64,000 bases of DNA from Methyloligella sp. (GTDB lineage Bacteria > Pseudomonadota > Alphaproteobacteria > Rhizobiales > HXMU1428-3), in assembly GCA_021604645.1 (NCBI GenBank), contig BQJJ01000001.1, positions 186,001 to 250,000 of the forward strand, in the 5' to 3' direction. Each line of letters starts with the position of its first letter. Position 1 is the first letter of the stretch. The notes under the pieces are model-generated. The model did no database searches. It was not told the DNA's origin and saw only the letters and a list, made by a program, of their open reading frames with translations. Shown piece by piece: positions 3,691 to 59,582 of this stretch. Made by a program: the position numbers and the translations under genes.

Positions 3691-3755
3691 AGTGACGGTT
3701 GCTGGTGGGCAACTGAAGTGCCACAAAAGCGCTTGAAATAGCCGTGAGAGAAAAT
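3691..3755 (+). repeat. Small two-tier hairpin motif (3691-3724) followed by truncated 3' end of large mosaic element
   Basis: agtgacggttgctggtgggcaactgaagtgccac, then gcgcttgaaatagccgtgagagaaaa. Confidence 0.75.
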
Positions 3756-3765
3756 AAAAACTAGC

Positions 3766-3884
3766 CATACGAATAAGGGAGTGCTCTTCTTTAGAGTGCG
3801 TACATGGCAGCGAGTGCTGCCCGGAGCCTAGCTCCGTCCCTCGGAGGCCCATGAGCTTTAGCTCATGGAATAGCCGTGAGAGAG
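3766..3884 (+). repeat. Large mosaic structured element, copy A
   Basis: CATACGAATAAGGGAG...TACATGGCAGCGAGTGCTGCCCGGAGCCTAGCTCCGTCCCTCGGAGGCCCATGAGCTTTAGCTCATGGAATAGCCGTGAGAGAG. Confidence 0.9.
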
Positions 3885-3919
3885 ATGATGCACTATTGAT
3901 TGGGAATTTGGAGGGAACA

Positions 3920-7371: not shown

Positions 7372-7839
7372 TTACTTCACAGTAATCGTAATCACTTGTG
7401 AGGATACAGGCGGATTATGAGGAATGTGATTTTCATCAGCAAGTACCAGTTGCAAAGTGTGCTTGCCAGAGGAAAGTTTTAAAATAGTCTCTGTCTGGCC
7501 GCCACCAAAATGAATGTGCTGCTCGTCTGCTGGAATATTGTCCAGATATTCATCAACACCATCTTCACCTTTTCCAAGCGCTGCACGGTCAATAAACAAA
7601 TGATGATGACCGGTGTTCGCTCTAGCCACGCCAGCGGGTGCCACTCCCATTCCACTTAATCCAAAAATAACTTTAAAAGGGCCTGCGACAACATCCCCAT
7701 CTTTGAGGTTTACAAAATATTGCTTGGTACCAGCCTTGGAGGGAGTTTCACCGGCCATAGAGGTGTTAGTCAGGCCAGAAAAGCCAATAGTTAGAAGCCC
7801 AAGAAATACAATCATTTTAAGAGCTATTGATTTTTTCAT
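7372..7839 (-). CDS. DUF4399-like secreted protein
   Basis: MKKSIALKMIVFLGLLTIG signal peptide; FVNLKDGDVVAGPFKVIFGLSGMGVAPAG...GHHHLFID...HIHFGGGQTE; start revised from 8007 to internal ATG. Confidence 0.8.
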   Translation of the reverse strand: MKKSIALKMIVFLGLLTIGFSGLTNTSMAGETPSKAGTKQYFVNLKDGDVVAGPFKVIFGLSGMGVAPAGVARANTGHHHLFIDRAALGKGEDGVDEYLDNIPADEQHIHFGGGQTETILKLSSGKHTLQLVLADENHIPHNPPVSSQVITITVK

Positions 7840-26798: not shown

Positions 26799-26956
26799 AC
26801 CCGAAGAAGGAGTTCAGCCCTTTTCGGGCTGGAGGACATGGCAACTTTGGCTGTCCGGTAAAAAACGCCGCACAGTGCGGTTGCACGTGGGCAACCTGAA
26901 GCACCTTAAAATGGAGGTCTATGAGCTTCAGCACATAGAATAGCCGTGAGAGAGAA
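26799..26956 (+). repeat. Large mosaic structured element, copy B (with nested small motif)
   Basis: ACCCGAAGAAGGAGTTCAGCCCTTTTCGGGCTGGAGGACATGGC...CTATGAGCTTCAGCACATAGAATAGCCGTGAGAGAGA; nested small hairpin 26875-26903. Confidence 0.88.
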
Positions 26957-26958
26957 AA

Positions 26959-26987
26959 CGCGGTTGCTAGTGGGCAAGCTGAAGCGC
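26959..26987 (+). repeat. Small two-tier hairpin motif, free copy
   Basis: CGCGGTTGCTAGTGGGCAAGCTGAAGCGC. Confidence 0.8.
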
Positions 26988-27002
26988 ATAGAGAGAAAAC
27001 CA

Positions 27003-32561: not shown

Positions 32562-32737
32562 CATGCGAAGAAGGAGTGGCGTCACTTCGGCGTCAGGACA
32601 TGGCGCAGTTGCAGCGAAGCCGGGCGCACAAGATCAGCCCGAACGGAGCGAAGCGAGTACGGATAAGTTGATCACAAGAACTTGCCGCCCCTCGGAGGCT
32701 CAAGCGCCTTAAGCGCTTGAAATAGCCGTGAGAGAAA
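32562..32737 (+). repeat. Large mosaic structured element, copy C (with third insert module)
   Basis: CATGCGAAGAAGGAGTGGCGTC...GTCAGGACATGGC...CCGCCCCTCGGAGGCTCAAGCGCCTTAAGCGCTTGAAATAGCCGTGAGAGAAAG; insert module 32628-32682. Confidence 0.88.
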
Positions 32738-37440: not shown

Positions 37441-37589
37441 GAGACTAATGTATTTAAAGCACTGAGTGCTTCTCCCTAGATCTTAAAAGTTGGCAGTCCA
37501 GAGTATGTCAATTTATATTGAATTCTTGAGACTGCTCTAGTCTTTTGTTTATGTCTGTTTTTTGTTGCTTCAGATGCCTACTTTTTTAG

Positions 37590-37623
37590 TGCTCCTTCAG
37601 GTTGCCTAATAACAACCGTCGCG
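37590..37623 (-). repeat. Small two-tier hairpin motif, only minus-strand copy seen
   Basis: Reverse complement reads GCGACGGTTGTTATTAGGCAACCTGAAGGAGC. Confidence 0.75.
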
Positions 37624-37752
37624 GTAGCCACAAATTCACAAAACCGCTAACCAATTTTGTACTGCACACACAGATTTGCAAGGTAACATATAGATATATG
37701 AAGTCTGTACCTCAAGGTTGAGTGGCAAACTGTGACGAATTGCTTGTTTGTT

Positions 37753-38835
<1,083 letters not shown>

Positions 38836-38994
38836 TTAAGTTCAAGCCACGTCAAATTCATTAAGAAAATCCAACAAGGCAGTAAGCCCCTCTTTCTGAG
38901 CTATTTTTAAAGCGGGGTCAATTGATTTAGGGAGTTTCATTGAAAAAGCGGATGCTGTTGAGTATCTGAAGCACATTAGCAACCAAAAGGAGCA

Positions 38995-39192
38995 ACACGA
39001 AGAAGGAGCTCAGCCTTTTTCGTACTGAGAGACAAGGCGAAGCACTTCGCGTAGTCCGGTGATAGTGCGGTTGCTAAGTGGGCAACTGAAGCACAAGCAA
39101 AAAACTCCGCCCCTCGGAGGCCTTCTGCGCTAGCAGCGCAGTTGCTTGTGGGCAACCTAAAGCGCTACTAAAAAGAATAGCCGTGAGAGAAA
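38995..39192 (+). repeat. Large mosaic structured element, copy D, carrying two nested small motifs
   Basis: ACACGAAGAAGGAGCTCAG...CTCCGCCCCTCGGAGGCCTTCTGCGCTAG...GAATAGCCGTGAGAGAAA; small motifs at 39065-39094 and 39135-39166. Confidence 0.88.
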
Positions 39193-39203: not shown

Positions 39204-39320
39204 ACACGAAGAAGGAGTATTGCCCTTTTCGGGCAATGGGACATGGCAGCGCGAGCTGCCCGGCGCAAGCGCCGCCCCTCGGAGGCCTTCTGCGCTAGCA
39301 GAAGAATAGCCGTGAGAGAT
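39204..39320 (+). repeat. Large mosaic structured element, copy E (canonical uninterrupted form)
   Basis: ACACGAAGAAGGAGTATTGCCCTTTTCGGGCAATGGGACATGGCAGCGCGAGCTGCCCGGCGCAAGCGCCGCCCCTCGGAGGCCTTCTGCGCTAGCAGAAGAATAGCCGTGAGAGA. Confidence 0.93.
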
Positions 39321-39323
39321 AAT

Positions 39324-39356
39324 AGCGACGGTTGCATAGTGGGCAACTGAAGGAGC
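39324..39356 (+). repeat. Small two-tier hairpin motif, free copy
   Basis: AGCGACGGTTGCATAGTGGGCAACTGAAGGAGC. Confidence 0.8.
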
Positions 39357-39371
39357 ACTAAAAAGAGAGAG

Positions 39372-42121: not shown

Positions 42122-42240
42122 CATACGAAGAAGGAGTAACGCCTTTTCGGCGTTAGGACATGGCGCCAGGGGCGTTCGGCGATTAGCGCCGCACCTCGCA
42201 GGGCCCGCAGCGAAGCAGCGGAATAGCCCGTGAGAGAAAA
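42122..42240 (+). repeat. Large mosaic structured element, copy F
   Basis: CATACGAAGAAGGAGTAACGCCTTTTCGGCGTTAGGACATGGCGCCAGGGGCGTTCGGCGATTAGCGCCGCACCTCGCAGGGCCCGCAGCGAAGCAGCGGAATAGCCCGTGAGAGAAAA. Confidence 0.9.
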
Positions 42241-42255
42241 TAAATGGAGAAAATA

Positions 42256-42849
42256 ATGAACAAATTAGAGTTTTGGTATGAGTTCGCCAGTCCGTATTCG
42301 TATTTTTCAATGATGAGAATTGAAACATTAGCAGCTGCTGCAAATGTGGAAGTGCACTATCAACCTTTTCTCCTTGGCCCCTTGTTCAAGGAATTTGGCT
42401 GGGAGACATCTCCATTTAAAATCTATGCAGAAAAAGGGGAAAACTTTTTTCGCGACATTGAGCGCGAAGCTGAGTTTTATGGTCTACCTTCCATCAAAAT
42501 TTTAGATGAATTCCCTCAACCAGGCTTAGCGGCTGCACGTGTTGCGCTTGTTGGCATGAAAGAAGGGTGGGGCGTTGAGTTCTCAAAGGCAATCTATAAG
42601 CGCCAGTTCCAGGATGGCTTGGAAACAAAAAATAAAGAAAATGTTTTGGAAGTTCTAAAGGCTCTGAATATTGAAAATGCTGAAACGGTTTTAGAAAAAG
42701 CAAATGGTGACGATAATAAATCTCACTTGCGCGAGATAATGGAAGTAGCAAAGAAGAAGAAAATCTACGGCGCGCCATCTTTCATTGTAGGAGATGAACT
42801 CTTCTGGGGCAACGACCGCCTGGAGCGCGCGATATCTTATTGCAAATAG
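42256..42849 (+). CDS. 2-hydroxychromene-2-carboxylate isomerase / DsbA-family protein
   Basis: LEFWYEFASPYSYFSMMRIETLAAAANVEVHYQPFLLGPLFKEFGWETSPF...GAPSFIVGDELFWGNDRLE; ATG at 42256 has upstream ggag. Confidence 0.88.
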   Translation: MNKLEFWYEFASPYSYFSMMRIETLAAAANVEVHYQPFLLGPLFKEFGWETSPFKIYAEKGENFFRDIEREAEFYGLPSIKILDEFPQPGLAAARVALVGMKEGWGVEFSKAIYKRQFQDGLETKNKENVLEVLKALNIENAETVLEKANGDDNKSHLREIMEVAKKKKIYGAPSFIVGDELFWGNDRLERAISYCK

Positions 42850-42917
42850 TGGCGGTTGTTAGTGGGCAACTGAAGCCACACAAAAAAGGCGGTTGCTAGT
42901 GGGCAACTGAAGCCGCG
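42849..42917 (+). repeat. Two tandem small two-tier hairpin motifs
   Basis: GTGGCGGTTGTTAGTGGGCAACTGAAGCCAC (42849-42879) and GGCGGTTGCTAGTGGGCAACTGAAGCCGC (42888-42917). Confidence 0.85.
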
Positions 42918-43105
42918 CTAAATCGGACGGCGTATATCATGTTTGATAGGGTATTTTCCACTCCTGACCATTTTTGACTTTCATAGACAATGAATAATTG
43001 AGTATTGAGTTTATTGATCTAAATGACATAAACTTCCAGTATTCTATTAATTTAATGATGTAATTCTAGCATGCATGACTTAAAGAAAATTGCAGAAGAA
43101 TAAAT

Positions 43106-43736: not shown

Positions 43737-43864
43737 CATCCGAAGAAGGAGCTCAGCCATTTTCAGGCTGAGGGACATGGCGTAGTGCGAACGAAGCCCG
43801 GCGCCTAACGCCGCACCTCGTAGGCCTATGAGCTTCAGCTCATAGAATAGCCGTGAGAGAGAGA
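43737..43864 (+). repeat. Large mosaic structured element, copy G
   Basis: CATCCGAAGAAGGAGCTCAGCCATTTTCAGGCTGAGGGACATGGC...CCCGGCGCCTAACGCCGCACCTCGTAGGCCTATGAGCTTCAGCTCATAGAATAGCCGTGAGAGAGA. Confidence 0.9.
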
Positions 43865-59044: not shown

Positions 59045-59250
59045 TATACAAAGAAGGGAGTGCTCGTCTTCAGAGCACGTACATGACGCCATAGGCGTCC
59101 GGTGTACAAGATCAGCCTGAGCGGAGCTTTGCAAGCACAGATAAGTTGATTGCAAAAATTGCCGCCCCTCGGTTGGTCCATGATCTTCAGCAGCGCGGTT
59201 GCAGATGGGCAACCTAAAGCGCCTCTAAAAAGAAATAACCGTGAGAGAAA
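59045..59250 (+). repeat. Large mosaic structured element, copy H (with insert module and nested small motif)
   Basis: TATACAAAGAAGGGAGTGCTCGTCTTCAGAGCACGTACATGACGCCATAGGCGTCCGG...; insert module 59106-59158; small motif 59193-59222; tail AATAACCGTGAGAGAAA. Confidence 0.85.
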
Positions 59251-59264
59251 TTCCCCAAACCATC

Positions 59265-59431
59265 CATACGAAGAAGGGAGTGCTCGTCTTCAGAGCACGT
59301 ACATGACGCCATGGGCGTCCGTTGCACAAGATCAGCCTGAGCGGAGCTTTGCGAGCACAGATAAGTTGATTGCAAAAAATACCGCCCCTCGGAGGCTCAC
59401 CGCTTCAGCGGTGGAATAGCCGTGAGAGAAA
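59265..59431 (+). repeat. Large mosaic structured element, copy I (with insert module)
   Basis: CATACGAAGAAGGGAGTGCTCGTCTTCAGAGCACGTACATGACGCC...; insert module 59326-59378; CCGCCCCTCGGAGGCTCACCGCTTCAGCGGTGGAATAGCCGTGAGAGAAA. Confidence 0.9.
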
Positions 59432-59434
59432 AAT

Positions 59435-59467
59435 AGCGACGGTTGCTTGTGGGCAACCTGAAGGAGC
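59435..59467 (+). repeat. Small two-tier hairpin motif, free copy
   Basis: AGCGACGGTTGCTTGTGGGCAACCTGAAGGAGC. Confidence 0.8.
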
Positions 59468-59470
59468 AGC

Positions 59471-59508
59471 AAAAAAACGGCCTCTCTGGGGGAAGAGAGG
59501 CCGTTTGA
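59471..59508 (-). terminator. Terminator downstream of transglutaminase-like gene
   Basis: aaaaaaaCGGCCTCTCtgggggaaGAGAGGCCG; minus strand ends in T-run. Confidence 0.85.
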
Positions 59509-59582
59509 ATGATCCAGCAAGTTGATCGGGGGATGAGGGGTGTGATGAGATTGCTGAACCAAATTCCTTTTAAATCTGTGGC

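Follow-up and report, generated by a model that had tools for sequence, protein, structure and literature searches.

REPs are the closest described kind of repeat to the element reported here (PMC3733652, PMC2817692, PMC3116915). Some REP families are inserted within palindromes (PMC3733652), which provides a precedent for insertion into hairpins, and the IS200/IS605 elements, which are related to REP systems, use the lagging-strand template (PMC6006769). We analyzed a 64-kb stretch of DNA (the window, G000:C1:186001-250000, source genome G000) that carries copies of a small hairpin element. This element is a short, imperfect, intergenic palindrome in high copy number. It has in common with the GTAG REP/REPIN elements, which go with RAYT (TnpA-REP) transposases, a bulged hairpin of 20-65 nt, a high copy number, an intergenic location, tandem clusters, and compensatory changes in the stem. 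It matched no curated family in Rfam, and no description of it was found in a literature search of open-access text.

Architecture of the element and its copies in the window

The unit is a two-tier hairpin of about 35-40 nt (roughly 38 bases). Read 5' to 3', it opens with an A and the first arm of the outer stem, which has 4-5 pairs. An unpaired G separates this arm from the inner stem, whose two arms enclose a loop of the form N2-GT-GG. A (C)TGAA bulge and the second outer arm follow, and the unit closes with a tail, for example AACTAAAAA. The A directly 5' of the outer stem is general, and the element is usually followed by (A)CTAAAAA. A run of at least four A within 16 nt was found downstream of 65% of the copies and upstream of 22%; a run of at least four T followed the hairpin in 1%.

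The sequence-only reading had described an invariant core surrounded by a self-complementary, covarying outer stem. The core is near-constant at the loop end (GTGGG), the (C)TGAA bulge, and the unpaired G, but the inner stem itself covaries. Its variants are GTTGC/GCAAC, GATGC/GCATC, and GTTTC/GAAAC, with counts of 202 for TTG/CAA, 63 for ATG/CAT, 10 for TTT/AAA, and 2 for TTA/TAA, and few mixed combinations. The covariation of the outer stem was borne out. In 505 distinct copies, gathered without using the outer stem, pairs 2-5 gave z scores of 9.8 to 17 relative to shuffled controls, with all pair types present; z was still 4-7 when only one copy was kept per distinct outer combination. Among 39 aligned copies, the covariation score of 0.222 was reached by none of 500 shuffles, and the signal collapsed when the stem register was slid. 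Wobble pairs, compared as a pointer to the strand that folds, numbered 37 GT/TG and 65 AC/CA in the outer stem and 20 and 11, respectively, in the inner stem. The idea that the outer stem is copied from the target site was unsupported in solo copies.

A search of the window for the core pattern with at most two mismatches gave 13 matches against 1.2 expected in shuffles, some of the matches being the two strands of one site. All eleven copies listed by the sequence-only reading were found where it had placed them. It had also noted a tandem pair that begins at the TAG stop of a DsbA-like gene, and this is the case. The first unit of the pair (42849..42886, +) starts in that stop codon and has the outer stem GTGGC/GCCAC, the inner stem GGTTG/CAAC, the TGAA bulge, and the tail CACAAAAAA; this assignment is based in part on a single-stranded DNA fold. 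The second unit (42887..42925, +) has the outer stem GGC/GCC.

Four copies, all on the plus strand, lie within copies of a larger repeat. The copy at 26875..26914 (outer stem GTGC/GCAC) is placed at the CCTCGGAGG arm of the larger repeat at 26801-26955. The larger repeat at 38998-39189 holds one copy in its CCGG hairpin (39065..39104, outer stem GTGC/GCAC) and another in its terminal hairpin (39135..39173, outer stem GCGC), and the copy at 59193..59230 occupies the terminal hairpin of the larger repeat at 59046-59245. A further four plus-strand copies abut the larger repeat: 26958..26996 (outer stem CGC/GCG), 39324..39362, and 59435..59475 lie directly past the 3' ends of the larger repeats at 26801-26955, 39206-39317, and 59266-59431, respectively, and 3691..3728 adjoins the truncated larger-repeat 3' end at 3727-3752. 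The copies at 39324 and 59435, together with the minority-strand copy at 37588..37624 (-), belong to a CGAC/GGAG subtype (AGCGAC..GGAGC). This subtype had been recognized at the same three sites (the last as 37590), and its description needs one correction: the outer stem is paired except for two facing G.A mismatches. A degenerate element at 38946..38976 (+), with a GATGC-type inner stem and a low score of 18, is the twelfth copy in the window. Beside the copy at 59435, the minus strand of 59472-59559 bears a weak likeness to the alphaproteobacterial sRNA ar14, below the threshold (21.6 bits; cut-off, 58.8).

The larger repeat occurs in the window at 3769-3885, 26801-26955, 32566-32735, 38998-39189, 39206-39317, 42125-42235, 43740-43860, 59046-59245, and 59266-59431. 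It is about 112 nt long, and a longer form of about 170-190 nt has an extra AAGATCAGCC...GATAAGYTGATC arm. Its layout is CGAAGAAGGAG-hairpin-GGACATGRC-hairpin-CCGG-hairpin-CCGCCCCTCGGAGGCC-hairpin-GAATAGCCGTGAGAG; the structure is multi-branched, and its paired arms vary while the joints stay fixed. An Rfam search with the larger repeat gave no match.

Distribution, nesting, and empty sites

The exact core GGTTGC-N4-GGGCAAC occurs 164 times in the whole G000 genome and 184 times in its relative G002, and the reversed control pattern occurs in neither. Therefore, the element is not a local duplication, in agreement with the genome-wide spread that had been proposed. A covariance model found at least 150 copies in G000 and at least 150 in G002, both lower bounds since about 150 candidates were scored per genome. 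The counts were 95 in G343, 37 in G256, 35 in G004, 34 in G005, 17 in G390, and 4 in G001. The distribution is graded, with five high-copy members of the genus, fewer copies in its other members, and copies in two further genera of another family. Among the genomes compared, G000, G002, G003, G006, G007, and G343 rank as high-copy and G001 and G390 as low-copy. The patchy presence suggested by the exact-pattern search was softened by the covariance model, which finds diverged copies in G004, G005, and G390. At L050 (about 7402-7530), we observed a near-perfect tandem array of GATGC-type units (TTGCGGATGCCTTGTGGGCATCTGAAGCAAAGAC), which was probably amplified recently.

Copies are found inside one another. 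We counted 34 distinct cases in which one element lies in the loop of another; the breakpoints pile up at GGTTGC(T)|, on the loop's 5' side, and hardly any fall in the stems. Tandem arrays run head-to-tail on one strand, and the arrays vary. Of 79 sites comparable between genomes at 82-85% nucleotide identity, 59 were occupied in both and 20 were empty in one. The aligned empty sites show clean insertion at two places in the larger repeat, its terminal hairpin loop (#6, #94, #305) and its GACGCCA|TGGCGTC hairpin (#352), and into another repeat family carrying AAGTGGATACCGGTTTT (#318, #354). At a gene end, a copy lies between two genes after a TAG stop (TAG|CGCGG vs. TAGCACTT), with a precise junction relative to the empty relative. 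Several copies lie inside genes or at gene ends. Further copies, in both orientations, occupy the larger repeat's first hairpin loop, and in G004 the one exact-core copy is flanked by the two arms of a GCGCGC hairpin. A third, GCGTTCCGCCTAAAAGTGGATACCGGTTTTAGGAAAAAGGAACGC-like repeat family (L115 about 6405, L119 about 14644, L054 about 4565, L129 about 15673) likewise receives insertions of the small element.

Across the genome, perfect stems were not significantly enriched around insertions (32 vs. 26 at 6 bp or more), indicating that insertion has a hotspot in hairpin loops without being confined to them. In the larger repeat, several positions are each occupied repeatedly by copies with one and the same outer stem; these recurrences may partly reflect composites that spread as units rather than independent insertions. 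The mobility of the element is well supported: it is repeated, its copies occur nested and in tandem, empty sites exist, and its numbers differ between genomes. The genomes whose sites were compared are 82-85% identical.

Orientation and the search for a mobilizing enzyme

The strand of the copies was tallied in 40 stretches of G000 totaling 820 kb. Relative to the majority strand of each stretch, 225 copies agree and 8 are reversed (97%). The element strand agrees with the sign of the AT skew with gene strand in the model (t = 10.3), and it has negative GC skew after gene strand is accounted for (t = -2.7). In the G000 stretches L112-L150, GC skew is weak and reflects genes no less than replication; AT skew, by contrast, is a clean marker of the element strand. 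Genes are divided between the element strand (329) and the opposite strand (364), and where almost every gene of a stretch points the same way, the copies nevertheless keep the orientation of the replichore. Between same-strand gene pairs, 76 copies run with the genes and 55 against them; many copies are antisense to both neighboring genes. On one 1.16-Mb contig of G002, the two strands carry 36 and 4 copies. The larger repeat shares the replication strand of the small element.

In bacteria, rplB and the 16S rRNA genes lie with the replication fork. Both rplB (S10 operon) and the SSU (16S) rRNA are opposite to the elements in G000 and in G002. Therefore, the sense strand of the element is very probably the lagging strand, although atpA is co-oriented with the elements and counts against this assignment. 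The parS sites were mapped, and no switch of the element strand was found in the surrounding contig, so these sites gave no position for the origin.

No mobilizing enzyme was found among Y1 transposases and reverse transcriptases, and neither correlates with copy number. Within the genus, the Y1 transposase (PF01797) was detected only in G000; it was absent from G002, G003, G006, and G007, and also from the carriers G256 and G343. The RVT_1 reverse transcriptase was absent from G000, G002, G003, and G007, all of which are copy-rich. The two Y1_Tnp genes of G000 are flanked by ACGGTGACAG repeats, which are unrelated to the small element. These Y1/RAYT-like transposase genes lie at G000:C1, L111 (11451-12125 and 15011-15676), with AATTACGGTGACAGTTTACT repeats on their flanks. 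They sit among small genes; upstream are the genes for a 2410-aa filamentous-haemagglutinin-like protein and for the transporter that probably serves it, the protein names at this locus being our reading of the sequence.

Possible mechanism and comparison with known systems

For the tandem copies, a role as terminators or RNA-processing sites had been raised. A transcribed RNA element of this kind (a terminator, a 3'-end processing site, or an mRNA-stabilizing hairpin) would account for structured, intergenic copies often found directly 3' of stop codons and for their depletion between divergent genes (21 vs. about 45 expected). The orientation, however, follows the replication strand and ignores transcription, as evidenced by the copies that run against their flanking genes or antisense to both neighbors. 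The hairpin is followed by A-runs rather than T-runs, and Rfam holds no match; hence, we consider such a role distinctly unlikely, and that of a terminator was rejected because orientation and tail are wrong. At the inspected locus, only a tandem copy read in antisense fits the intrinsic-terminator pattern (a G+C stem, then a T-run). Since the A-tail of the preceding unit becomes a T-run in a tandem array, the arrays could serve as weak terminators of antisense transcripts. The strand rule itself could be explained by selection on a replication-strand signal (like Chi, KOPS, or a lagging-strand priming or segregation site), with wrong-way copies being lost and mobility only the source of copies. 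The orientation bias along replichores, the high density, the intergenic placement, and the conserved core agree with such a signal. It is nevertheless an unlikely explanation: within one genus, copy numbers range from about 4 to more than 150, copies nest in and interrupt each other, arrays vary, and several copies lie in genes or at gene ends. A signal essential to the cell should not be almost absent from close relatives.

The other two alternatives concern how copies arise. Passive spread by template switching of the polymerase between hairpins at the fork would need no dedicated enzyme, consistent with the lack of correlation between copy number and any transposase or reverse transcriptase. 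Tandem arrays and loop nesting fit hairpin-stalled forks, and the strand bias fits the asymmetry of the fork. On the other hand, each insertion comprises a whole unit, from the first outer arm through the second to the A-tail, with the same ends every time, where switching should give ragged ones; the core is conserved while the outer stems change, implying recognition. This route is therefore fairly improbable. The A-rich tail recalls retroposition of a small RNA (SINE-like), but with RVT_1 absent from the copy-rich genomes this origin is very hard to credit. The apparent 5' truncations are the right halves of loop-interrupted copies and not products of retroposition.

We favor, and hold to be somewhat probable, a REP-like, non-autonomous mobile element: a hairpin that enters single-stranded DNA at the replication fork, with hairpin loops as a hotspot. 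A protein that recognizes a folded strand would fit the conservation of the loop, bulge, and inner stem alongside an outer stem that covaries freely. The orientation fixed by replication and the use of hairpin loops point to single-stranded DNA at the fork as the substrate, as for IS200/IS605 (PMC6006769). We infer that this substrate is used, that the strand bias arises by insertion and not by selection, and that the element is acted on by a nuclease or transposase, either dedicated or borrowed. Such an enzyme would recognize the folded single strand by the inner stem, the GTGGG loop, and the TGAA bulge, while the outer stem would need only to pair. At the fork, it would join copies into exposed single-stranded DNA with a single orientation with respect to the direction in which the fork moves, and hairpin loops, including the element's own, would be the preferred sites. 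A more specific version is advanced tentatively, as possible rather than probable: a single-stranded DNA mobile hairpin, moved by an enzyme that is neither a Y1 transposase nor a reverse transcriptase, that enters hairpin loops in a fixed lagging-strand orientation, nests in its own copies, and rides in the larger repeat.

REP-like repeats are widespread, and their movement has rarely been inferred so directly. With hairpin loops as landing sites, each nested copy would record an insertion with its target attached. The movement of such repeats may thus be testable from sequence, in a lineage mostly without a known REP transposase, where an unrecognized enzyme may be at work.

Compared with the GTAG REP/REPIN elements, the small element lacks the GT[AG]G foot. 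Within 0-2 nt 5' of the hairpin foot, GT[AG]G was found in 1 of 255 copies on the sense strand and in none of the 255 on the antisense strand; TAG overlapping the first stem base was found in 66 of 255 copies and GTAG in 4. There is no RAYT in most carriers, and a RAYT-driven REP was rejected given that the REP tags and, in most carriers, the enzyme are absent. The arrays are head-to-tail on one strand, whereas REP BIMEs alternate, and insertion into its own loop further sets the element apart. The CGTC REPs are also short alphaproteobacterial hairpins with loops of 4-5 nt and no dedicated transposase, and one family is found inside palindromes (PMC3733652). However, CGTC is present at the hairpin foot of 1 of 255 copies on each strand. 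The CGTC REPs have one stem of 8-9 bp and form head-to-head pairs with CCA, in contrast to the two-tier stem with its TGAA bulge and the head-to-tail pairs with an A-rich tail. With both tags absent and a one-stranded, head-to-tail orientation, we assign the element to neither REP superfamily, although it would work like a REP.

Among other mobile elements, those of the IS200/IS605 type share an orientation locked to the replication strand (225:8 here), but a search for their HUH Y1 transposase found it within the genus in G000 alone, beside unrelated repeats, and in neither of the carriers G256 and G343. The mobile GC clusters and double-hairpin elements of mitochondria resemble it as small, palindromic mobile units that are clustered and merged and have no known enzyme (PMC4478555). 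They differ in residing in organelle genomes, in being GC-rich clusters in AT-rich DNA, and in their AG target nucleotides, and we claim no homology. ISPpu9, ISPsy8, and the like also insert into hairpin repeats, namely REP palindromes (PMC1525189), but they are full insertion sequences with their own transposase, whereas here the inserted unit is itself a 38-nt hairpin. Taken together, the element is real, genome-wide, and mobile-looking, and its strand rule is unusual.
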